Assembly: GCA_003249795.1 (NCBI GenBank)
Contig: QKHZ01000057.1
Location: forward strand, 1-34,322
Origin: a bacterium
Lineage (GTDB): Bacteria; Planctomycetota; SZUA-567
DNA: 34,322 nucleotides
Direction of reading: 5' to 3'
The notes under the pieces were generated by a model that ran no database searches, was not told where the DNA came from, and saw only the letters and a list, made by a program, of their open reading frames with translations. Each line of letters opens with the position of its first letter. Position 1 is the first letter of the stretch. Shown in pieces: positions 1,265 through 32,889 of this stretch. Made by a program: the position numbers and the translations under genes.

Positions 1265-3802
1265 ATGTTGACCGAAAATGAAGATGGGCGCATCACCTGC
1301 CACCACTGCTCGACACGCTACAAGATAGGAAGTATGAAACCGGGGCAGATCTTCAGCTGTACCCGTTGCGGCGAACTTGTCCGCACCCCCGGAACCAACG
1401 CACAAGATACATCCAGTATTTATGAACGTGCATTCGGTGAAAGCGCTATTACGTTGGGATACCTGACGCCAACCCAACTTGAACATGCATTACAAACGCA
1501 AATATCCGCAGCAAATGCAAAAAAACGTCTTCCCGATATTCTACTGCAAATGAACGTCTTGAGCTATCAGCAACTCAGGAATGTCCTGCAACAACAGAAT
1601 GCCGAAATTACAGATTACATCCCCGGCTATGAAATCGTCCGAATACTGGGTAAGGGCGGCATGGGCGCCGTCTACAAAGGCATGCACATCATCAGCAATA
1701 AAACCGTCGCAATTAAGGTTTTGGCTCCACACCTGACCGGAAATGATATTTTCCTTGAACGATTCCACCGCGAAGCACGCGTGGCAATCAAACTTGACCA
1801 TCCGAATATCGTCAAAGGGTATGATGAAGGTTGTGTGGGCGATACACACTACTTCGTCATGGAATATGTCCACGGAAAAAGCGTCGGGCGCGTCCTGAAA
1901 AAACGCACCCATTTCGGTGAACGCCGCGCGTTCGACATCATCCGACAAGTTACGCTTGCGCTGGAATATGCCCATGCGCGCGGGATCGTCCATCGCGATG
2001 TCAAACCTGACAACATCATGCTGACACGTGAAGGCAAGGCTCGACTGGCAGATTACGGTCTCGTGAAATTTGCAGACGACCTATCGGTCGCAGGACTGAC
2101 TACCGAAGGGCAAATCATGGGCACGCCTAACTATATCTCGCCAGAACAGGCCGGCGGCGAAAGCAACATCGACATCCGCAGCGATATTTACTCTCTGGGC
2201 GCAACACTGTTTCACATGATTGTGGGCCGCCCTCCGTTCAAAGACAAGAAACTTACGGCGATCCTGAACCATCACCGGTTTTCACCGCTTCCGAACCCGC
2301 GAGAACTGAACCCTGACCTGTCCGAATCAGCCAGCAACCTTGTTCAAAAGATGATGGCAAAAGAACGAGTAAACAGATTCCAGACTCCGAAAGAATTGGA
2401 AGAGGCCATCTCAAGCTATTTCCGCGGTTCGTCAATCTATATGACTGAAGAAGACCTGATGCCAGAAGCTGAAGGGGAGATTGATCCTGAAAATCTTCAA
2501 GCCGATCCGTCCAGCGGGAGCTTGACAGCCCAGCCAGAGATTTTACATGAGCAGGAGAGCGATGAGGAACCGATCAAGTTCTACCAACGCCCTGCATTTG
2601 CTATCGGCCTCGGAATCGGAATCGCTTCCATAATGCTGGCTGTCTTTGCATGGATCATGTCTGCGCGCAAAACAAACACCCAACCGCAACCGCCGGAAGA
2701 AAAAATGACGTCATCAACGGAAAAAAGCAACGGGCTGATCCGTACGGAAAAGCCGCCTGCGCTTTCACCTGAAGACGAAGTTTCGACAGAAGAAAGCATC
2801 TCTGCAGACCTGTACAGGCAAGCGCTGTTGACCGACAAAGCGGAACAACGGAAGATTTTCGAAAATCTCGTCAATCAATACCCAAGCACTACGTCCGGCG
2901 TTCTGGCACAGCAGGAACTTGACCGAATCAGAGCAGAAGAACGTCGTCAAAAACAAGTCGAACAACTTGCAAAGAAACAACGATATGAACGCGCAGCTGA
3001 AAATGCCCTCGCCGATGCCATGACAAAAGTCAGCAGTGGTAGTGATGCTTTTTCAAAAGCCCTGACCATGGTTACCCAAAAGTACAAAGAGACACCGGCA
3101 GCGCAAAAAGCGCAAAAAGAACTCGATCAACTAAATGCAAGCCTCGCGGCAGAACAAAAACGCATCGAAGAAGAGAAACGGCTTGAACAACAACGGATTC
3201 GCGCACAGAAACGTCTGGAGATTGAAGAACGCATTCAGCCGATCCGTAACCGGTTCATCTCCTATTATATCCCCGCACTGCAAAAGCACGATTACGATGA
3301 TGCGGAGAAATACGCGCGTTTTCTCTCAGAAGACGATAGATACCCAGAACTGAAACCGCTGGGCAAATCCTGCCTGAGCGATATTGAAGACCTGCGCAAG
3401 ATCGATGCCGGCATTGCACACACGCTCAACAATGCCGCTGAAAGCGGCGAAACCGTCACGCTGAACTTTAACTCAGGCCGCACTGTTGAGGCTACAATTA
3501 AAGAGATCAACGGAAACACCATCCGGATGCTGGCAGACGGGCGGATTCCGCTGGTTCGCCAAATGTCTGATTTAACAGAAGAAACTTTTTTCGGACTCTA
3601 TACAAAAGGTCGCAGCGAAGAAGACCCGTCGCCGGAGCTGGCAAAAGCGCTGTGGCTGCTGGCAGAGCGCAACCCGTACACAGGCGCAGCCTTCCGGAAA
3701 ATCGGCAAAAACGATCCGCGCTACGGCCATCACATGGGCTTTGTCCATTGGCTGGATTTGAATGAAAAACCAAAACCGGCGGCTCCGCAAACCGACAAAT
3801 AA
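1265..3802 (+). CDS. Membrane-anchored Hanks-type Ser/Thr protein kinase with N-terminal zinc ribbon
   Basis: This 845-residue protein opens with a zinc ribbon (C12-x2-C15 and C32-x2-C35). Residues 53-115 (ITLGYLTPTQLEHALQTQ and on) resemble the N-terminal helical domain of GspE/PilB ATPases. The kinase domain spans about 121-390: GKGGMG 129-134, ATP-binding K151, catalytic HRDVKPDN 243-250, DYG 263-265 in place of DFG, SPE 292-294, and DIYSLG further on. A transmembrane helix lies at about 444-466. A charged coiled-coil-rich region follows to about 690, then a C-terminal domain I do not recognise. The topology predicts a cytoplasmic kinase and an extracytoplasmic C-terminal half. AGGAG sits just upstream of the ATG. 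The catalytic set is complete, so it should be active; its substrates are unknown. Confidence 0.93.
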   Translation: MLTENEDGRITCHHCSTRYKIGSMKPGQIFSCTRCGELVRTPGTNAQDTSSIYERAFGESAITLGYLTPTQLEHALQTQISAANAKKRLPDILLQMNVLSYQQLRNVLQQQNAEITDYIPGYEIVRILGKGGMGAVYKGMHIISNKTVAIKVLAPHLTGNDIFLERFHREARVAIKLDHPNIVKGYDEGCVGDTHYFVMEYVHGKSVGRVLKKRTHFGERRAFDIIRQVTLALEYAHARGIVHRDVKPDNIMLTREGKARLADYGLVKFADDLSVAGLTTEGQIMGTPNYISPEQAGGESNIDIRSDIYSLGATLFHMIVGRPPFKDKKLTAILNHHRFSPLPNPRELNPDLSESASNLVQKMMAKERVNRFQTPKELEEAISSYFRGSSIYMTEEDLMPEAEGEIDPENLQADPSSGSLTAQPEILHEQESDEEPIKFYQRPAFAIGLGIGIASIMLAVFAWIMSARKTNTQPQPPEEKMTSSTEKSNGLIRTEKPPALSPEDEVSTEESISADLYRQALLTDKAEQRKIFENLVNQYPSTTSGVLAQQELDRIRAEERRQKQVEQLAKKQRYERAAENALADAMTKVSSGSDAFSKALTMVTQKYKETPAAQKAQKELDQLNASLAAEQKRIEEEKRLEQQRIRAQKRLEIEERIQPIRNRFISYYIPALQKHDYDDAEKYARFLSEDDRYPELKPLGKSCLSDIEDLRKIDAGIAHTLNNAAESGETVTLNFNSGRTVEATIKEINGNTIRMLADGRIPLVRQMSDLTEETFFGLYTKGRSEEDPSPELAKALWLLAERNPYTGAAFRKIGKNDPRYGHHMGFVHWLDLNEKPKPAAPQTDK

Positions 3803-5006: not shown

Positions 5007-6113
5007 ATGGAAGCATTGGTATTTCTTGCGGTACTGGTTCTGGTCGGCTTTGCGTGGCATGAACGCCGCGCACGCACTCAGCCCTCGCATGAGAATTTCC
5101 ACAAACCCAACCAGCCCAAAACACCGCAAGAAACCGCACGCCGTGACGCAGCGACAGAAAAAGTCCTCACCCAATTAACCGACATCCGCAAATCCCTGCA
5201 GAAACAGGTTGAAGAAACGGTCAAGGAAGATCCGCGCAAAGCAGCCAATACCGTGCGCACGATGATGAACCAGAAAAACGAGGCAAATGCCTCATCCCGC
5301 CAGCGAGGGTTCTCACTTGTTGAGGTATTGGTCGTCACCGCAATCATCGCAATCCTTGCCGGAATTTTATTGACCGCACTCTCAAGCGGAAGCGCCAGCG
5401 CGCGACAAGCCGCGTGCGTGCAGAACAACTCCCAGCTCATGAAAGCTTGGCAACTCTGTGTCAACCAGTCACCAATCACGGAAGTCCCCGGCGCGCAAGG
5501 CTACTCCGTACCCAAGGTGCAAAACGAAGACGGCACGACATGGGTCGACACACTTTCTCCGTTCCTGGGTGACAATACAAATGTCCTGTATTGCCCGTCA
5601 CATGAAGCAGAAAAAAAGTATAGTTACGGAATGAACCCGCTTGCCGGCGCATCATGGACATACGCGGCTGGTTATTTCGGGCAAGGATATCTGCTTACTC
5701 CGGAAGAAACACGCGCCCGACCCTTCAGTATGATCAACAACCCGGCCGGAACCCTGATCCTGTGCGATGCAGGACAAATCACGGATGCATCGAAAGACAA
5801 CCAGCCTCCGGAGTGGCAGGAAGACCTGTCCGCATCATGGAAACCATACGTTGCCTTCAGCGTAACTGACCACTCCAGCACGTGGTACAAGCAAACCGGC
5901 CTCGCTGTTACCTATGGATATGACTGGGGATCTTCCGTCCCGCTCAGCGGCGTCGGGGCAATGGGTTGGAACGGGCTTGTGCGCGCCCTTGGCCGCCATG
6001 AAGGGCGCGTTGTCTGCGGCTTTGCCGACGGCAAGGTCGCTGCCCTTCCGATAGTCGGCGTCGTTTCGCATGACTGGGGATCTGAAATGTGTTTGTTTGA
6101 TAATCAGTGGTGA
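5007..6113 (+). CDS. Pseudopilin-like protein (prepilin N-terminal motif, H-x9-DG C-terminus) with an extra N-terminal membrane segment
   Basis: Residues 97-126 contain a textbook type IV prepilin processing site: RQRG101/F102SLVE106 followed by a hydrophobic helix. The C-terminus carries RHEGRVVCGFADG, an exact H-x9-DG motif typical of the many PVC pseudopilin-like proteins (DUF1559 type). Such proteins usually start 5-20 residues before the cleavage site. Here the frame stays open from 5007, adding an N-terminal membrane helix (residues 2-17) and a charged linker. Met86 (5262) would give a normal 16-residue leader but has no ribosome-binding site. The ATG at 5007 has an AAGGCGG-like site five bases upstream. 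The product may therefore be a fusion or two overlapping translation products. Its function is probably surface display or secretion; the substrate is unknown. Confidence 0.82.
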   Translation: MEALVFLAVLVLVGFAWHERRARTQPSHENFHKPNQPKTPQETARRDAATEKVLTQLTDIRKSLQKQVEETVKEDPRKAANTVRTMMNQKNEANASSRQRGFSLVEVLVVTAIIAILAGILLTALSSGSASARQAACVQNNSQLMKAWQLCVNQSPITEVPGAQGYSVPKVQNEDGTTWVDTLSPFLGDNTNVLYCPSHEAEKKYSYGMNPLAGASWTYAAGYFGQGYLLTPEETRARPFSMINNPAGTLILCDAGQITDASKDNQPPEWQEDLSASWKPYVAFSVTDHSSTWYKQTGLAVTYGYDWGSSVPLSGVGAMGWNGLVRALGRHEGRVVCGFADGKVAALPIVGVVSHDWGSEMCLFDNQW

Positions 6114-6184: not shown

Positions 6185-7573
6185 ATGCAACGCTACTTCG
6201 ATACGCACTGCCATTTGTATTGCCCCCACTTTGATGATGACCGCGAAGGCGCGATCACCCGCGCGGCCGGCTTGAATGTCAGCATGTTGAGCGCGGGAAC
6301 GTGCGCAGAGAGTTCGCGCACCTGCGTAGAACTGGCAGGGCGGTTCCCGAATGTTTATGCCGCTGTCGGGATTCATCCAAACGATGCGGACCGTCTGGAA
6401 ACAGAGTGGGACGAAATCAAGAAACTGTGCGGTACGGACAAGGTGATCGCTATCGGCGAGACCGGGCTTGATTACTATCACGATCATTCTGACCGCGGCC
6501 AGCAAAAGAAATGTTTTCAGGCACACATCGATCTTGCACAGGAAAAGAACCTTCCGCTACTGCTGCACGCACGTGACAGCGCCGATGACGTCCTGACGAT
6601 GACTGAGCCGTTCATGCGCAACGGCGGCAAAGCCGTCTGGCACTGCTTTATCGCTCCGAAGAAAAAAATCGAATCGCTCCTTGACCGCGCGCTGGAGATG
6701 GGGCTTTATCTCGGCATGACCGGCCTTGTGACGTTTGACGACCAGATCCCGCTTCACAAAGCGGTCAAGCGCATCCCCGACAAACACCTGCTTCTGGACA
6801 CCGACGCACCATACCTCAGTCCGCGCCCGAAAACAGGCGGCTATAACGAACCGGCAAACTGCATCCGCATCGCAGAACGCTTGGCTGAAATCCGCGGGGT
6901 CACGCTTTCGGACATCGCACGCATTACAACCCGCAACGCCTGTAGCTTCCTTAGCCTTGCCTTGCCTGAGGAAGAAGAAGCCGCGCGCGTGGCGTATCCG
7001 ATCCGCAACAGCCTCTATATCGCACTGACGAATGAGTGCAACAACAACTGCAGTTTCTGCGCACGCAATCAGGGCTATGTCGTCAAAGGCCACAACATCA
7101 AACTTGATCATGCCCCGAGTGCGGACGAAGTCATTGTCGCGATGGGAGACGTCTCGCAGTATGAGGAAGTCGTGTTCTGCGGCTTTGGCGAGCCAACCCT
7201 CAGACTGAATGTCCTACTGGAGATTGGCCGTTACCTGAAGCAGAAAAATATGCGCGTGCGACTCAACACCAACGGGCTTGGCAATCTCGAATACAACCGC
7301 GACATCGTTCCGGAACTTGCAGGCATTCTCGACCAGATCAGCATCTCGCTCAATACAACAGATCCCGATCAATATCAACAACTCTGCAACAGCCGCTTCG
7401 GCTCTGGCGCGCACGCGGCCGTCTGCGCCTTTATCCAGCGCTGTGTCCAGATCGGTATCGACACAACCGCAACCGTTGTCGAGATGCCGGGGATCGATGT
7501 CGAAGCGGCCAAGCGTCTGGCAGAATCACTGGGGGCAAAGTTTCGCGCCCGCAGTTTTGTCGACGCCGGCTGA
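6185..7573 (+). CDS. TatD-family metal-dependent hydrolase fused to a radical SAM domain
   Basis: The 462-residue chain has two domains. Residues 1-260 are a TatD-type TIM-barrel deoxyribonuclease/hydrolase with its metal ligands: H8 and H10 in DTHCH, E92 in GETGLDYY, H128 in LLHARD, H153 in VWHCF, and D207 in LLDTDAPYL. Residues 275-462 are a radical SAM domain with C285-x3-C289-x2-C292 for the 4Fe-4S cluster and GFGEPT at 334-339. A radical SAM family that accompanies TatD genes is known (the TatD-associated radical SAM group); its reaction is not established. The two are in one frame without a stop, so they are expressed as a single polypeptide. AAGGGA lies 11 nt before the ATG. Possible roles are nucleic-acid or nucleotide repair or turnover, which is inference. 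Confidence 0.9.
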   Translation: MQRYFDTHCHLYCPHFDDDREGAITRAAGLNVSMLSAGTCAESSRTCVELAGRFPNVYAAVGIHPNDADRLETEWDEIKKLCGTDKVIAIGETGLDYYHDHSDRGQQKKCFQAHIDLAQEKNLPLLLHARDSADDVLTMTEPFMRNGGKAVWHCFIAPKKKIESLLDRALEMGLYLGMTGLVTFDDQIPLHKAVKRIPDKHLLLDTDAPYLSPRPKTGGYNEPANCIRIAERLAEIRGVTLSDIARITTRNACSFLSLALPEEEEAARVAYPIRNSLYIALTNECNNNCSFCARNQGYVVKGHNIKLDHAPSADEVIVAMGDVSQYEEVVFCGFGEPTLRLNVLLEIGRYLKQKNMRVRLNTNGLGNLEYNRDIVPELAGILDQISISLNTTDPDQYQQLCNSRFGSGAHAAVCAFIQRCVQIGIDTTATVVEMPGIDVEAAKRLAESLGAKFRARSFVDAG

Positions 7574-25044: not shown

Positions 25045-27120
25045 CTATTTTGCCAGAATCGCTCCAATACCGGCGACAACGACATAACAGCGATTATCAA
25101 GACAATGAGTGGCAACAAACCGGATGTAACGCGCCGGCATCGGCTCCGGCAAATTGATGCGCTGCATTCCAGGATTTGCTTTGAGATTTCCGAACTCACC
25201 GCATGCAGCGGCAGTCCAATCCTCACCGTCAAGGCTGAGATACACCTCATACTTATCCGGCGCGCCTTCCATTTCAGAACCCGGAATCATCCGCGGCATC
25301 ATGGTGATTGCCGCAAGCGTCTGGGACTTACCCATATCGAGGACAACCTCATGAGGCGGAGCGCTTTGTTTTTTTTCAGTATGGTATGTGTGCCAGTATG
25401 TTGTCGGATCATCATTTAACAGATGCTCTTTGCAGGCGTTTCCACCATTGGTGAATTCACTTTCAAGACTGACACGGACAACGCACCAGTTACTGCGGTC
25501 ACAGCCAAACTCCGCCGTTGTTACAGAGGTTTTGGCATTGTCCTCATTCGGAATGATACCGACAGCTTTAACAACCCCACCATCCGGAAGCACCAGCGGC
25601 TGCATGTAAACCGGCGAGTTTTGATCCGGCTCTGTTCCGTCTGTGGTGTAGTGGATTTCAAATCCGTCACTGCCTGCGCGAATACTAACGCGGCCTTCCT
25701 TATTTCTCGTGATCGCAATCCTGCTGTTCATAACCAGATTTGCAGAGGCCTTATAGAATCGAATATGACGGATCACTGGCGGCGCAATAAAGCGAGTGAA
25801 GCGGATGCGGACCTGATCCGTCATGGCGGTCTTGATGATCAGCAACCGCTTGTATCCGATGCTTGTAGCGGTTGCCGTCTGTTGCCAACTGCCATCCTGC
25901 CAGACATCAACGGCAAATTCATCAACCCGCTGGCCGTATTCAATCGCCTCTGAAATCTCGATCACATTGAATGCTGTCCCCTCATCCAGTTTTACCACAA
26001 GAGCAGGTTCTTTCTCACCCTCACCAGCCAGCCAGAATGACATATCGTCGCTCAAAACACTGCCTGCAGAAAACGGTTCCTGTGCCGCATCAGACTCTGA
26101 GAGGTCATTGGCCGCGTCCGCAGTTTTAATCCGGCTTTGGCTGAAGATCTGATTCTTCTGTTTACTCCAAGCGCGAAGGCTTTCTGCATCATCGTCACAG
26201 ATCAGCCCCCTGCGGTCAGGCGCCAGACCGATATTCATGCAGCAACCGAGACCAACCGACTTGAAGTACACATCCATCAACCGATCCGGTTGTTTTACCG
26301 CATCGTGCTCATGATAAAACCACCCCTCACGCAACGGAAAGTCACACTCTCCCGGCATCCAATGCGTACCGTTTCGCTCCCCCTGCTCCAGTATTTTCCC
26401 ATCAGCAGTTGAAAACGGATCGACTGCAAGTGTCGCCCAGCACGGGTCATGCGCATAACCGTGTTCGTTGCCGATAAACCGCAAGTCGGCAATTCCGAAC
26501 ATGCAGGCATCCGGCTGATATTTCCGGATCATTGCGCGAACGGTGTCCCACTGATAATAATCTTTACCAATACTGCGGCGGTCGTAAGCGCCTCCATAGT
26601 AACCGTCACCACCATGTGCACCGTCGAACCAAAACTCAAACAGCGATCCATAACCTGTCAATAACTCACGAAGCTGCTCGTGATAAATGTTGACATAATC
26701 CTCAGCTCCATAGCCCGGATTATTGCGATCCCACGGCGAGCAGTAGATGCCGAATTTCAATCCGTGACGTGCGCACGCCTCAGATACATCTTTAACCACA
26801 TCGCCCTTGCCGTCACGCCACGAACTGTTGCGGACACAATGCTCCGTCGTTTTGGTCGGCCACAGGCAGAAACCGTCGTGATGCTTGGCGACAAGGATCA
26901 TACCGTTGATGCCAGTCTCTTGGCACAACCGCACCCACTGGTCAGCGTCAAATTCAGCCGGATTGAAAAGATCCGGCGATTCGTCGCCAAAGCCCCATTC
27001 TTTATCCGTATACGTATTGAGGCTGAAGTGGACCAGAGAGTATACCTCTGTCTCGTGCCACTTCATCTGGCGAGGGCTTGCATACGGCCCAACCGGCGCG
27101 ATCCCGACTTGTGTGGTCAT
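25045..27120 (-). CDS. GH29-type alpha-L-fucosidase with C-terminal carbohydrate-binding-like domains
   Basis: The 691-residue product has a GH29 barrel at about 1-370. KHHDGF is at 79-84, the nucleophile is D166 in FEFWFDGAHGG, and E258 in MPGECDFPLREGWFY is the probable acid/base. A chitobiase/hexosaminidase-C-like segment follows at about 480-530 (EIHYTTDGTEPD), then an F5/8 type C (CBM32-like) domain at about 555-690. It releases alpha-linked L-fucose or a related sugar. There is no signal peptide, so the site of action looks intracellular. A TTG codon at 27138 could extend the frame, but the ATG at 27120 has AAAGG seven bases upstream and is preferred. It is the last gene of the operon, 26 bp after the next fucosidase gene. 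Confidence 0.88.
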   Translation of the reverse strand: MTTQVGIAPVGPYASPRQMKWHETEVYSLVHFSLNTYTDKEWGFGDESPDLFNPAEFDADQWVRLCQETGINGMILVAKHHDGFCLWPTKTTEHCVRNSSWRDGKGDVVKDVSEACARHGLKFGIYCSPWDRNNPGYGAEDYVNIYHEQLRELLTGYGSLFEFWFDGAHGGDGYYGGAYDRRSIGKDYYQWDTVRAMIRKYQPDACMFGIADLRFIGNEHGYAHDPCWATLAVDPFSTADGKILEQGERNGTHWMPGECDFPLREGWFYHEHDAVKQPDRLMDVYFKSVGLGCCMNIGLAPDRRGLICDDDAESLRAWSKQKNQIFSQSRIKTADAANDLSESDAAQEPFSAGSVLSDDMSFWLAGEGEKEPALVVKLDEGTAFNVIEISEAIEYGQRVDEFAVDVWQDGSWQQTATATSIGYKRLLIIKTAMTDQVRIRFTRFIAPPVIRHIRFYKASANLVMNSRIAITRNKEGRVSIRAGSDGFEIHYTTDGTEPDQNSPVYMQPLVLPDGGVVKAVGIIPNEDNAKTSVTTAEFGCDRSNWCVVRVSLESEFTNGGNACKEHLLNDDPTTYWHTYHTEKKQSAPPHEVVLDMGKSQTLAAITMMPRMIPGSEMEGAPDKYEVYLSLDGEDWTAAACGEFGNLKANPGMQRINLPEPMPARYIRFVATHCLDNRCYVVVAGIGAILAK

Positions 27121-27146
27121 CAGAATACCTTTATTCAATCACGTTA

Positions 27147-28553
27147 TTATTCAAATGTAACTGCGACGACATCAACAAACGTTGTCCGCATCGGCTCCGG
27201 GATACGCACAATGAGATTGTCCGCCTGCTGCTCAAACAGAACGGCTTCACCTGTAGCGAGCATCGTCGCACTCTTGGCCTTGCCGACGCCAGTCAAAGTC
27301 GCCTGCCCTTCATTCAGATAGTCGAAGTGGACATACCATGTTTTCCCGCGGATCGTAACCGGCGCGTCCGACCGCTCAGGCCACGGCCCCGGTTCGACAT
27401 CAAAGACGGATTCTGCGTGCTTCTGCATCCAACTTTGAATCTGCTGCATTCTTTTATAGAACCCCGCCGGCATCTGCCCGTGCGCATCAGGCGCGAAGTT
27501 CGGCAAAAAGTTTCCGCCCCACGCACGCGCCTTGACAAGCTCCGCAAGCAACCAGCCAACCGGCTTATACCCGTCATGCTCGCGGTATCCCCATCCGCCG
27601 TCTTGGCTGACGTGGCAATATTCCCACCATCCCCGATGGCGTTTGTCAGGGAAACGACACTCTGACGTGTCGAAGTCACCGTACCCAAGCGCTCGTGGAT
27701 TAAACAACATCGACGGTTGCAACTTGCGCATTTCTTCAACACTCAATGTCTCTTCACCGTTCGGGAAAGCGCCATCATACCAGAGCACATCAATCGGCCC
27801 GTAGTTTGTGATCAGCTCCAACGTTTGCCCACGGACAAGCGCGTCGTACTCTTCATCCTGTTTTTTATTTTCTTCTTCAGACTGAACCGGCAGATATGCG
27901 GGACGGCCGCCTTCTGAAGGTGCAATTGTCACTCCATCCGGAAGATTTACCGGCTCATGATTCACATCAAGCGGTGGCTGCTGTTTACCATAATGAAACG
28001 ACATGCGATTACGGTTAAAGTACCAGTCCGGCGGCGAATAATACAGCCCAACCTTTAGACCTACCTCGCGACATGCATCCACATACTCGCGCACGATATC
28101 ACGTCCCGGCTGGTAGTTACCAATATGAAAGCCGCCGAAAGCACTCGGCCACAGACAGAAACCGTCGTGATGCTTGGTCGTCAGAACCGCGTATTTACAT
28201 CCGGCTTCTTTTGCCGCAGTCAGGATCGTAACCGGATCAAATGCATCGACAACAAAATCCTTTGCCATCGCCCAATAATCCGACGGGCGCATGCAAATGC
28301 GCAAATTGAACAGGCCATAACTTTTGACCGCATTCTCGCGTGTTGAGCTATCGTTCTTGATCATTCCCCACGAGAGATCGCACTCCCCGCGCACGGCGGA
28401 GATCCCGAAGTGGAGAAACAACCCCAATCCGGCCGATGCAAACCACTGCGCATCCGGATGGTCATTGCGCTGAAACGCAGGCGCTGCATCCTGCGTAACA
28501 TTTCCGATCATCGCGTGCTGTTCGGAAACAACTGCATCTTCTTTCTTGCTCAT
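27147..28553 (-). CDS. GH29-type alpha-L-fucosidase
   Basis: This 468-residue protein has the GH29 barrel: FLHFGISA near residue 47, TTKHHDGFCLWPS at about 125-137, YYSPPDWYF, and LWYDGAFP with the nucleophile D260. A small beta-domain ends the chain. Like its neighbour it lacks a signal peptide. The two GH29 enzymes differ clearly in sequence and in C-terminal domains, so they may act on different linkages. A GTG at 28562 overlaps the stop of the GH116 gene (GTGA); the ATG at 28553 has AGGAAAG at a better distance and is preferred. Either way translation is tightly coupled to the GH116 gene. The assignment to GH29 is firm; the linkage is not. Confidence 0.93.
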   Translation of the reverse strand: MSKKEDAVVSEQHAMIGNVTQDAAPAFQRNDHPDAQWFASAGLGLFLHFGISAVRGECDLSWGMIKNDSSTRENAVKSYGLFNLRICMRPSDYWAMAKDFVVDAFDPVTILTAAKEAGCKYAVLTTKHHDGFCLWPSAFGGFHIGNYQPGRDIVREYVDACREVGLKVGLYYSPPDWYFNRNRMSFHYGKQQPPLDVNHEPVNLPDGVTIAPSEGGRPAYLPVQSEEENKKQDEEYDALVRGQTLELITNYGPIDVLWYDGAFPNGEETLSVEEMRKLQPSMLFNPRALGYGDFDTSECRFPDKRHRGWWEYCHVSQDGGWGYREHDGYKPVGWLLAELVKARAWGGNFLPNFAPDAHGQMPAGFYKRMQQIQSWMQKHAESVFDVEPGPWPERSDAPVTIRGKTWYVHFDYLNEGQATLTGVGKAKSATMLATGEAVLFEQQADNLIVRIPEPMRTTFVDVVAVTFE

Positions 28554-28558
28554 AAGTT

Positions 28559-31144
28559 TCACTTTCCTACTGTAAGGACAACGTCTTCCGATGTTCGCAC
28601 CATCTCAATTTTAACGACAGGTTTCGCTGACGAAAGTGACCATGCCCCCTGCCGGATCATTTCACCGATTGCGATTGACTTCAACTCAATCTCGCCATGC
28701 AGGACTTCGAACACAAGTTCGAAACGCCCTTCGCAAAGCGCCAGTTTGTATGTACCCCACGCAGAACCGTTCGACCAGAAAAACGTGCCGACCCGTTCTG
28801 ATATGTGAAGCAATTTACTGAGAGCGCTGTAATCGAATCCAGTCAGCGCCACGACTGCCGACCAGCTTGCCATACCGCGCGCATAATGGTGACCGCACTC
28901 GGTTTCGTCAAACGGGCTTCGCTTTGCACCGTCATACCGGTTACGGATATCATCTATACATTGCATGCCTTCTTTTTCCAGTCCTTCATACAACATGCCA
29001 ACAGCAGCCGTGTATTCAAATCCGGTCATGACCTCCGCGTAATAAGGAAACGGCGCTTTGGGGCGCTTGCCTTCCGGAAACGCCGCCATGAGCAGCGCGT
29101 TTTCATCACCGACGACAAACGAGCGCATCGGGTTGAAGTGGTCGAATACAGTCTTCTTCCGGTTCATGGTAAAGATTGTCTGCAGAGTCTTTCTGACATA
29201 TTCCGGTTTATGCAGATACCCGAGTCCGCAAATATGCGCCATATATTGGCCGACAAGCTGGTCGACAAGACAACCTTCAGCAATCTGATAGTCCGGATCA
29301 GACAGATCCTGCGCACCCGAGTCGCCATGAAAACACAGATCGATCGGCTGCGTCGGCGAAACGACCTTCTGGATATAATACGAACCGTTAAACAGATTCT
29401 CATCCATCCAGCGGCTTCCGTTTTCGGCAAGCCTTTCGCATTCAGTTGCAAACTCGGTTTCACCAAGATATTCTGCCATGATCCCGGCAGCTTTTAGCGC
29501 GCCGATATACCAGCCGGTCATCTGCGGGTTGGGGCCGTAATACTCCACATCCATCGTATTGTGCTGACAGCCTTCCATCACGCCGTCGCGGTCTGCATCC
29601 CAACCGCCGCTGATCCAGCAGAACTCCAACGCCTTCTTTGCCATCGGCCACACCGACTTCAGATAATCAGTATCGCCCGAGAGTTTCCAGTCGCGATACA
29701 GCTTCATGATGCAGCCCATCTGCCCGTCAGCGGCGCATTTATCAAACCCCAGCGAATCCGTCAGCGGCAGATTGATCCGGAAGTTCATCATGCCCCTGCT
29801 GTCGGTTGCATAGTTGAATTCCAAGTCCCGCATCTTGCGCGACAGATCACCGAAGAGAAATCCTGTCGCCTGCTCATAGTTCCACACGTGCGTGCAGTTT
29901 CCATAGCATGAACCCGAACGCGGCAGAGATCCTTCAAATCCGAAGAAGTAACCGTCCGGTGTACGGAAACACGTCTGGCAGCGAAGCGTACTCAGGTTAT
30001 ACAGTGCCGCTTCCTTGACAGACTGCGGCAAATCGCTTTCCGTAAACGCCGAGACAAACTGAACGGTTTTTTCTTCAAGTGATGCCAGTTGCGGCTGGAT
30101 CTTTGCAGCAGCGTCCCACGCATCCGCAAACTGCGTGCAATAGTAATTGCCGATCCATGTGCGCTGCGCGCCTTCTCCGCGATGCCGGTCAGGTGTCCAG
30201 TCATACCGGTTGGGGAAATGCCAACTCAACAGAAACGTGAACGACGCCTCTTCTCCAGCCGCAATCTCTTTCGTCAGCGCAAGGCTTGCCACCGGCCTGT
30301 CCTGCTCGTCTTCTGCGCGGTCATCCAGCAGGCCGTCTTCTGTCAGATCATCCCAGAAGTCACGCAGCGGCTTGTTCCATTTTCCGGCTTCCGCCCACTG
30401 CAGACGCTTGGTGACGGTTGCCTGATCCGGCGTTGTCAAAGCAATCGTGCCCCAGGCTTCTGCTTTGACATCCGGATGATCCGAGCGCATCAGAATCCCG
30501 CGCAGGTTTTCGCTTTGCTTCCACTCGTTTCTGTTCTTGCAGTCCTCACCGCCAAAAAAGATCTTGCTGGCACTGTTAATCTCTCTCGTGTCGCCGTCAA
30601 TACCGATGAAGTTCGGCAGACTTCCGCAGACGGTAACGGCTTGTTTTTGATCCGATGTATTTTTCACATGATACCGCAGCATGACAAACGGCAACCCGCT
30701 CGCATCAGACTCAGCCGGAATCAGCGGATTATATGCCTGCAACGATACCTGCAGCGGAAGCGACGGACTTTCAAAATCGAGCTGCGCCATCGGATATGCC
30801 GCCCGGAACGTGCATTTGTCAAAACGGGGCAAGCCGTGATTCTGATTTTTCGGGCCGCCCGGACCTTCATAATCAGCCGGATCCAATGGGCCTTCAATCA
30901 TCCGCGCGTGGGTTTTGCCGTCTGAAGTTTTTGAGACGACAGCGAAAAACGGCCCGTTTTCGTGACCGATCCACGGCGAAAAATCTTTGCCCGGACGATT
31001 CATGATCTCCCAGTCACACAGGTTTCCCCGCCCGCCGATGGAGACAGCACCGGTGCCGATCCCTCCCAGCGGCATCGCGACCCGAAGTAAGCTTCTACCT
31101 TCATACGATGTTAATACCGGCCATTGTTTCATTGTTTTTCTCAC
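28559..31144 (-). CDS. GH116 family glycoside hydrolase (GBA2/beta-glucosidase type)
   Basis: The 861-residue protein has the GH116 layout. The N-terminal beta-sandwich domain starts with AMPLGGIGTGAVSIGGRGNLCDWEI, and the C-terminal (alpha/alpha)6 barrel contains GNCTHVWNYEQATGFLF, DGVMEGCQHNTMDVEYYGP and GCLVDQLVGQYMA. The block around HNTMD (near residue 532) lines up by eye with the acid/base region of human GBA2. The nucleophile is probably a Glu in the FGFEGSL-to-NYEQA stretch, but I cannot assign it. Family members cleave beta-glucosides, beta-xylosides or N-acetylglucosaminides. There is no signal peptide. The GTG start at 31144 is used; ATG at 31132 is an equally plausible start. It is 49 bp after the LamG-SGNH gene. 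Confidence 0.9.
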   Translation of the reverse strand: MRKTMKQWPVLTSYEGRSLLRVAMPLGGIGTGAVSIGGRGNLCDWEIMNRPGKDFSPWIGHENGPFFAVVSKTSDGKTHARMIEGPLDPADYEGPGGPKNQNHGLPRFDKCTFRAAYPMAQLDFESPSLPLQVSLQAYNPLIPAESDASGLPFVMLRYHVKNTSDQKQAVTVCGSLPNFIGIDGDTREINSASKIFFGGEDCKNRNEWKQSENLRGILMRSDHPDVKAEAWGTIALTTPDQATVTKRLQWAEAGKWNKPLRDFWDDLTEDGLLDDRAEDEQDRPVASLALTKEIAAGEEASFTFLLSWHFPNRYDWTPDRHRGEGAQRTWIGNYYCTQFADAWDAAAKIQPQLASLEEKTVQFVSAFTESDLPQSVKEAALYNLSTLRCQTCFRTPDGYFFGFEGSLPRSGSCYGNCTHVWNYEQATGFLFGDLSRKMRDLEFNYATDSRGMMNFRINLPLTDSLGFDKCAADGQMGCIMKLYRDWKLSGDTDYLKSVWPMAKKALEFCWISGGWDADRDGVMEGCQHNTMDVEYYGPNPQMTGWYIGALKAAGIMAEYLGETEFATECERLAENGSRWMDENLFNGSYYIQKVVSPTQPIDLCFHGDSGAQDLSDPDYQIAEGCLVDQLVGQYMAHICGLGYLHKPEYVRKTLQTIFTMNRKKTVFDHFNPMRSFVVGDENALLMAAFPEGKRPKAPFPYYAEVMTGFEYTAAVGMLYEGLEKEGMQCIDDIRNRYDGAKRSPFDETECGHHYARGMASWSAVVALTGFDYSALSKLLHISERVGTFFWSNGSAWGTYKLALCEGRFELVFEVLHGEIELKSIAIGEMIRQGAWSLSSAKPVVKIEMVRTSEDVVLTVGK

Positions 31145-31193
31145 TTATCTTTTCTGGAAAAAGTCTATCAGGAATGGTTTACACTTATATTTT

Positions 31194-32603
31194 CTACGGA
31201 AGATTTTTCTCGATCTCTGCGTTAATCATCGCAGCCATCTGCTCTTCAACATGAATCCGGCCCAACTCCTCCGGACTCAATTTTGTGCTGAGATTGTTCT
31301 GGATAGACTTGCGATCCCAGTGCAAGGTGTCGCGGCAATGCAGCGGAACCTGCTTCATATTTTCAACGCACAGCCCGTACAAATCGACCTCGGGGATACC
31401 AAACTCATTCATCACGTTGTCGACGATTGCGTTATATTTAACCACGCGGTCGTTACCGGGATTGTCGATTGTCGATGTGCCGTCATCCTGCAGCTTGCGG
31501 ATCGGTGTGCAGCGGATCCAGAGAAAACGCGTCTTCGGCGCTTCTGCTTGTAAAAACCGAACCATCTCTGTCATGTTTGGCGCAAGCGATTCTTCAGGAC
31601 AACGTTGCGGAAGATTCGGCGTCCACATATGCAGCGTCATCGAATTCCAGCTGACCACGTCATACGGCCCGTGCGAGAAAATCCCTTTCCACGCCTGCTT
31701 GATCTTTGAACCTTCCGTACTTACGTCAGCCGGATCAAGCCACCCGCCGCCAACCCAGTAGTCAACAGTTGCCTTGCCTTTGAAATGATCTGTGATGTAT
31801 TTGCGATACCCCATTGAAATCGAGTCACCCACAACCAGAATCCGCGGCAGATCCGGATCCTCAATTTCCGCACGCATCAGCACATATCCGGGTCCCGAGC
31901 AAATTTTCATCGTTTTTACAGACGGGTCGAAACCGTCGGGGATAATCGCCGTGTTGTAGATTTTGATTTCACTGATTGTGATCGGAACGCTTGCGCCCTT
32001 TTTGATCTGCCCAAACTGCAGCGGAAGCGAGGATGAATTAATTTCATCCGTTGTCGCCAGCAGAAGACCATTACGAAACACCTGCATCTGCCTGTCTTTC
32101 ATGACCAGCGTGATCTTGCAGGTCTGCGCACTCGACATGGCGAACAACGCACCGCCCATCCCGCCGCCCTGCACAAGCTTTCCGTTAATCTCCAGCGCGA
32201 TGCCGTCAGCATCGGTCGCTTCATAGTCTTTCCGCAGCGGAAAATAGACAAAGCCGAATCCGGCCTGTTTTTCTTTGTCAGTGTTTTCGACAATAGACAG
32301 GCAGTCATGCCACGGGTTTTCCGACATCAGCGCCGGACGCCGGACAGTAAACTCAATCGAAAAGTTATCAGGATCTGTTATTGTATCTGCTGGTAGCTCA
32401 AAAGCATTCGCCCCGTCAAACGTAACTGAGTCGCCATCCCGCAGCAGTTTTCCCGTAATGCGCTTTTCATCAATCTTCCCGTTAGATGTCCAGACCGGCG
32501 TCTGCGATTGCGGGTTCATTGGTAGATCCTGTGCTATAGAAAAATCCGATACCATTACCCAAACCACCAAAAGCAGGCTGCTCAGGATTCCTTTTTCCAC
32601 CAT
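31194..32603 (-). CDS. Exported LamG-SGNH hydrolase
   Basis: The 469-residue product starts MVEKGILSSLLLVVWVMVSDFSIAQ, a normal signal peptide cut near SIAQ/D. Residues about 50-210 form a concanavalin/laminin-G-like beta-sandwich (FSIEFTVRRPALMSENPWHDCLSI). The SGNH domain follows: S261 in VVGDSISMGY, a WNSMTLHMW block in the position of the usual GxND block, and DTLHW (about 424-428) with the Asp/His pair. It probably removes acyl groups from a glycan outside the cytoplasm. The frame stays open to 32693, but GGGAG precedes the ATG at 32603 and the promoter-like sequence at 32662-32689 lies between them, so 32603 is preferred. It is the first gene of the minus-strand operon. Confidence 0.87.
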   Translation of the reverse strand: MVEKGILSSLLLVVWVMVSDFSIAQDLPMNPQSQTPVWTSNGKIDEKRITGKLLRDGDSVTFDGANAFELPADTITDPDNFSIEFTVRRPALMSENPWHDCLSIVENTDKEKQAGFGFVYFPLRKDYEATDADGIALEINGKLVQGGGMGGALFAMSSAQTCKITLVMKDRQMQVFRNGLLLATTDEINSSSLPLQFGQIKKGASVPITISEIKIYNTAIIPDGFDPSVKTMKICSGPGYVLMRAEIEDPDLPRILVVGDSISMGYRKYITDHFKGKATVDYWVGGGWLDPADVSTEGSKIKQAWKGIFSHGPYDVVSWNSMTLHMWTPNLPQRCPEESLAPNMTEMVRFLQAEAPKTRFLWIRCTPIRKLQDDGTSTIDNPGNDRVVKYNAIVDNVMNEFGIPEVDLYGLCVENMKQVPLHCRDTLHWDRKSIQNNLSTKLSPEELGRIHVEEQMAAMINAEIEKNLP

Positions 32604-32661
32604 ATCGCTATCTCCCGAATCGAAATCCTGTAGCAATCCAACGCCACCAGCGCTTATCGGG

Positions 32662-32689
32662 ACTTTAGCACGCACAGGCTGAAAAGCAA
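32662..32689 (-). promoter_or_regulatory. Putative promoter of the minus-strand glycan operon
   Basis: On the minus strand TTGCTT (32689-32684), a 16-bp spacer and TAAAGT (32667-32662). The match is moderate, three of six for the -35 and four of six for the -10, so an activator or a different position is possible. Confidence 0.35.
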
Positions 32690-32889
32690 GCAAGTAGCAT
32701 TATTTTTTAATAAATAGATCGTTTCTTGATGCGCGTTTTCTCTAACCAGCCGAAACAGCAACGAACACAACATTATATCTATCAATAATTAACATCATAC
32801 AGACAAAGAAGATCCACACTTTTTGATCAGGCTTGAATGTCATAAATTTAGTTTCATTCTGTCGATGTACGCGATATAGTAGTAGAAAC

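Follow-up and report, generated by a model that had tools for sequence, protein, structure and literature searches.

A TatD-family nuclease fused to a TIGR04038 radical SAM domain in a Planctomycetota bacterium

Introduction

Class II TatD nucleases are marked by an HxH motif, and the E. coli enzymes TatD and YcfH show 3'-5' exonuclease and AP-endonuclease activity (PMC10085689). By this motif, E. coli YcfH and YjjV are class II like the TatD half of the fused protein described here, and TatD/YcfH (TIGR00010, PF01026) have the whole domain, the HxH motif and the metal ligands in common with it; the fused protein differs from them in adding a C-terminal radical SAM (rSAM) extension and in the conserved D243 and R246 of its last TatD helix. 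TatD is part of a wide metal-hydrolase superfamily of the amidohydrolase type, and the true TatD substrate may be something other than DNA. Another TatD-family nuclease, QatD, works with the nucleoside-type enzyme QatC in the Qat anti-phage system.

On the radical side, TIGR04038 is named "TatD family nuclease-associated radical SAM protein"; the name itself states the TatD link, and both fused and adjacent forms occur. We know of no reaction assigned to TIGR04038, and a literature search by family name or accession found no paper on it. Its closest sister family is the TIGR04100 family radical SAM protein (rSAM_pair_X). Pyruvate formate-lyase (PFL)-activating enzyme, NifB, viperin and MoaA have a similar minimal rSAM fold (TM-score ~0.7 on our query) but differ from it in sequence (15-20% identity), act on other substrates and have no TatD domain. 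The fused form of TIGR04038 physically ties a widespread rSAM family to a nuclease family with known assays, so that the reaction is directly testable on one purified polypeptide. We analyzed such a fused member in a contig of 34,322 nucleotides (QKHZ01000057.1, assembly GCA_003249795.1; Planctomycetota, SZUA-567), hereafter the window.

Results and discussion

An intact gene for a two-domain protein

The gene and its parts are as follows, with residues numbered along the protein.

6185..7573, + strand: whole gene, TatD nuclease fused to a TIGR04038 radical SAM domain, 462 aa
6194..6955, + strand: TatD metallo-nuclease domain, class II (HxH motif), residues 4-257; PF01026, TIGR00010; ligands H8/H10/E92/H128/H153/D207 conserved
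6911..6913, + strand: Asp243, fusion-specific, last TatD helix; 93% of fused, 18% of unfused and 0/4 separate TatDs
6956..6988, + strand: short linker between the family matches, residues 258-268; variable in 80 homologues
6989..7558, + strand: minimal radical SAM domain TIGR04038, residues 269-458; 242 bits; fold like PFL-activating enzyme, NifB and viperin
7004..7006, + strand: Arg274, fusion-specific, first rSAM strand, proposed partner of Asp243; 74/80 fused, Gly in 6/7 separate rSAMs
7037..7060, + strand: CX3CX2C [4Fe-4S] cluster motif, residues 285-292; invariant in 80 fused and 7 separate homologues
7175..7195, + strand: FCGFGEP motif (GGEP-like, SAM-binding), residues 331-337; C332, G333, G335 and E336 invariant

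An earlier note, made from the sequence alone, had placed TatD and rSAM in one polypeptide and had named two findings that would speak against this: a stop or frameshift between the domains, and separate synthesis of the halves. The frame begins with ATG and runs through without a stop or frameshift, and both domains were matched by Pfam and NCBIfam. Codon 268 is a GTG preceded by purine-rich sequence and in frame, and could conceivably serve as a separate rSAM start; however, ATG, GTG or TTG occurred anywhere in the linker in only 5 of the 80 homologues, indicating that separate synthesis is not a conserved feature, and translation of the rSAM half from this internal start was rejected. A chance or assembly-made fusion was ruled out by the same two-domain length in homologues of other phyla.

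In the TatD half, PF01026 (TatD_DNase) matched residues 5-256 (1.5e-66, 225 bits), and TIGR00010 matched residues 4-257 with 223 bits, over its curated cut-off. D6, H10, E92, H128, H153 and D207 were invariant across the 80 aligned fused homologues and H8 was present in >90%; the H8/H10 pair and the remaining metal ligands place this half in class II. By analogy with E. coli YcfH and TatD, it would have 3'-5' exonuclease and AP-endonuclease activity. The QatD model scored 82.9 bits, far under its cut-off of 230, and a Qat defence role was therefore rejected; qat genes were not identified in the window.

In the rSAM half, TIGR04038 matched residues 269-458 with 242.3 bits over 190/192 positions, nearly double its curated threshold (129.7 bits), and the TatD association expected of the family is found within the same polypeptide; the earlier claim that this is a known TatD-linked rSAM family was thus borne out. 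PF04055 (Radical_SAM) matched residues 281-447 (1.1e-17), and the full-length match to the sister family TIGR04100 (181.1 bits) fell under its cut-off of 262. Both superfamily motifs are present, the cluster motif as C285/C289/C292 and the GGEP-like motif as FCGFGEP; the three cysteines and G333-x-G335-E336 were invariant in the 80 fused homologues, and the active-site residues of both halves are those that the earlier note had listed. R340, R359, R372, R454 and R456 were also invariant or near-invariant in this alignment, a set that would suit a negatively charged substrate bearing phosphate or carboxylate.

Modelled alone, the rSAM half reached a pLDDT of 95.1. Among solved folds, it resembled PFL-activating enzyme (the best structural match), NifB, viperin, SkfB, MoaA and QueE, with TM-scores of ~0.6-0.75 at 15-21% identity. 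Sequence profiles gave RlmN as the top solved match (1.5e-5), followed by a sactipeptide-type rSAM protein, MoaA and PFL-activating enzyme, all of them weak. These likenesses identify no substrate. No SPASM or peptide-binding domain was found among the Pfam and NCBIfam matches of the protein.

The fused form is the usual form of the family

The earlier note had proposed a search for the same architecture across genomes; the fused form was found to predominate over many phyla, and separate-gene cases also occur. The 80 best loci of a GTDB contig scan comprised 73 fused and 7 separate, a proportion biased toward fused forms because the loci were picked by likeness to the fused query. The fused loci among these 80 came from at least 15 phyla, including, by record labels, Thermodesulfobacteriota, Myxococcota, Nitrospirota, Nitrospinota, Planctomycetota, Omnitrophota, Zixiibacteriota, Calditrichota, Ignavibacteriota, Bacteroidota, Chlorobiota and Acidobacteriota. 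Five of the 7 separate loci were from Bacillota, and tatD was directly adjacent in 3 of the 7. The long frames L041 and L068 (664 and 831 aa) contained no extra Pfam domain.

In a set of 60 genomes, made up of that of the window and 59 relatives, TIGR04038 exceeded its cut-off in 13; the frames measured 456-500 aa except for one cut by a contig edge. No TatD besides the fused protein was found in 9 of these 13; the window's genome also encodes an unfused, divergent TatD-family protein (G000:C136:11264-12070, a 303-aa frame). A wider Planctomycetota census gave the family in 71 of 392 genomes, nearly all in fusion-length frames, fusion being inferred from frame length for most of the 71. Of four shorter or doubtful frames examined, one was cut by a contig edge beside TatD sequence, two were frameshifted next to TatD sequence and one (G178) stood alone. 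The TatD-rSAM architecture is thus the usual form of a family already named in databases, and the finding is real but ordinary. What is added here is the census, the natural rSAM loss and the fusion-specific residue pair described below.

Several members stood apart from the fused form. The stand-alone TIGR04038 gene of G178 (L139/L140, C219:28812-29387), with no TatD in the stretch examined, lies between genes for a membrane protein bearing ferredoxin-type cysteines and for a beta-eliminating-lyase-like protein, and may show an rSAM function divorced from TatD. A Geobacteraceae locus of 11.9 kb carries a stand-alone family rSAM (L093:4214-4864) and no TatD, whereas the fusion is present in other Geobacter. 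In a Bacillota MAG, a separate TIGR04038-like rSAM (L072:6935-7807) has a C-terminal extension of ~70 residues with no Pfam match.

Fusion-specific residues suggest fixed docking

The earlier note had taken the fusion to mean that the two activities are functionally coupled, acting on one substrate or in strict sequence, for example to repair or remove a modified nucleotide end. This reading is partly supported, in that features on both sides of the domain boundary fit a functional coupling. The whole protein was predicted by AlphaFold2 from an 80-sequence alignment with a pLDDT of 95.5 and a pTM of 0.88. At position 243 in the TatD half, Asp was associated with fusion; Arg at position 246 was present in 94% of fused TatDs compared with 29% of unfused and 50% of separate ones. 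Across the boundary at position 274, Arg of the fused proteins gives way to Gly in most separate rSAMs. The two fused proteins that lack an acid at 243 (L014 and L051) also lack a base at 274, and none of the fused proteins keeps the base at 274 without the acid at 243. We infer that Asp243 and Arg274 form an inter-domain salt bridge; this pair is a new observation. As both residues are kept in fused proteins, missing from most separate ones and lost as a pair, they suggest, together with the confident model, a fixed docking of the two domains. Inter-domain covariation by mutual information (~67 effective sequences) was noisy and was set aside, and the domain distance correlation of 0.70 carries little weight, being expected anyway for domains that are inherited as a unit.

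For TatD, the coupling is nevertheless optional, since close relatives keep the nuclease unaccompanied by an rSAM domain. In the TatD tree, the window protein grouped with 5 fused and 3 unfused TatDs of its own family and order at 97-99% SH-aLRT. The 3 unfused TatDs form a clade inside this group; their genes stop where the TatD domain ends and retain no trace of an rSAM sequence. The radical half thus looks dispensable, and its loss is the simplest account of a group whose internal branching is weakly resolved. Over the whole tree, fusion state needed 12 changes, but just 2 are forced by well-supported branches, so that the fusion may have arisen once or several times. Natural rSAM loss in sister taxa and the fusion-specific residues offer ready-made comparisons.

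Enrichment of the family in low-oxygen lineages

In the first 60 genomes, COX1 was found in 0 of 13 with the fusion compared with 27 of 47 others (one-sided p 1e-4). In the larger Planctomycetota sample, it was found in 29 of 71 genomes with the family compared with 271 of 321 without (p 4e-13, kinship ignored); a heme-copper oxidase was lacking in 42 of 71 and 50 of 321, respectively. The family is therefore enriched in low-oxygen lineages but not confined to them, and the association is strong but confounded by kinship. Strict restriction to anaerobes is refuted by COX1 in the 29 genomes.

Gene neighbourhoods

In many bacteria, tatD ordinarily lies in the order metG-tatD-ksgA. With gene names assigned by reading the sequences, the commonest neighbours in 79 homologous loci were metG (28, mostly directly upstream, a metG-linked position like that of TatD/YcfH), holB-type (19), PSP1-type (17), tmk (13) and ksgA (7) genes; a second neighbour set, typical of anammox bacteria, comprised rpsP, trmD, rplS and a yraN-type gene. 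Beyond such housekeeping genes, no conserved partner gene was found in the 79 neighbourhoods. In the window, a pilin-like gene lies upstream and uvrA downstream, an order not common to other members of the window's family; a functional operon with uvrA was rejected because the downstream uvrA is not conserved in those members. A promoter and terminator scan at the window gene gave results at chance level.

Possible function of the fused enzyme

Of several readings, the most likely, which we hold tentatively, is that a single nucleic-acid substrate is processed in two steps. In this mechanism, the two domains would be docked in a fixed arrangement, helped by the Asp243-Arg274 contact, and the rSAM domain would make a 5'-deoxyadenosyl radical. 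The radical may alter a nucleic acid, or a nucleotide freed from it, at a sugar or base; before or after this radical step, the TatD site would hydrolyse a phosphodiester. In bacteria that live by a low-oxygen metabolism, such an enzyme could have an accessory part in end-processing or repair. The domain matches, the intact residues, the known TatD/YcfH activities (PMC10085689) and the predominance of the fused form argue for this reading, as do the confident two-domain model with fusion-specific D243/R246 and R274, the conserved rSAM arginines, the weak likeness to the RNA-modifying rSAM enzyme RlmN (1.5e-5) and the enrichment in genomes lacking a heme-copper oxidase. Against it stand the width of the TatD superfamily, the absence of the rSAM half in sister taxa, the stand-alone rSAM in G178 and a neighbourhood not common to the window's own family; moreover, the best fold matches act on a protein, a metallocluster and CTP (glycyl-radical activase, NifB and viperin), so that the fold gives no hint of a nucleic-acid substrate. 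A more specific proposal is doubtful: a welded two-site enzyme in which the rSAM half would alter a nucleic-acid end or lesion and TatD would cut it, an undescribed radical-based reaction spread over many low-oxygen phyla and often encoded at a standard tatD locus.

Alternatively, the rSAM half may make or modify a small nucleotide- or carboxylate-like molecule and TatD may be the hydrolase that acts next, with no polymeric nucleic acid involved. The minimal rSAM domain resembles MoaA, QueE and viperin, whose substrates are GTP, a pterin and CTP; TatD is an amidohydrolase-type metal hydrolase; and the fused gene is often the only TatD of its genome. We consider this unlikely, however, given that no biosynthetic cluster accompanies the gene, its neighbours being tmk, holB, metG and ksgA or ribosomal genes and trmD, and that the TatD proteins assayed to date have proved to be nucleases (PMC10085689).

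Less probable still is that the rSAM half modifies a separate protein post-translationally or acts as its activase, TatD being only a carrier or coupled in expression. Its best fold match is indeed PFL-activating enzyme, and other minimal rSAM enzymes are activases, but the 79 neighbourhoods show no conserved partner gene other than housekeeping genes; the fusion-specific residues conserved in the TatD half and the lack of a SPASM or peptide-binding match also argue against it.

A purely regulatory cluster site, which would sense oxygen or SAM to gate the nuclease and would catalyse nothing itself, seems quite improbable. The enrichment in genomes lacking a heme-copper oxidase and the ability of TatD to do without the rSAM half are consistent with a sensor, but all SAM-binding and radical motifs are invariant, beyond a sensor's need, and stand-alone rSAM copies exist.

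A TatD-type D-aminoacyl-tRNA deacylase, DTD3, occurs in cyanobacteria; a DTD3-like TatD half with an rSAM half acting on tRNA ends would fit the metG and trmD neighbourhoods but is very improbable, as DTD was found in 7 of 13 genomes with the fusion, and replacement of DTD was rejected because an ordinary DTD (PF02580) is present in the window's own genome (G000).

Other genes of the window

The plus-strand frame at 5007-6113 has its prepilin N-methylation motif match starting at residue 97, and the listed start may be ~90 codons early. An 845-aa protein with a Ser/Thr protein kinase domain is encoded at 1265-3802 (+). On the minus strand, 25045-32693 encodes two alpha-L-fucosidase family proteins, a GH116-type glycosidase and a GDSL-type protein, and beside these genes the plus strand carries a mandelate-racemase-type enzyme, a short-chain dehydrogenase and an AraC regulator; the region 25045-32693 looks like a fucose or glycan utilisation locus.
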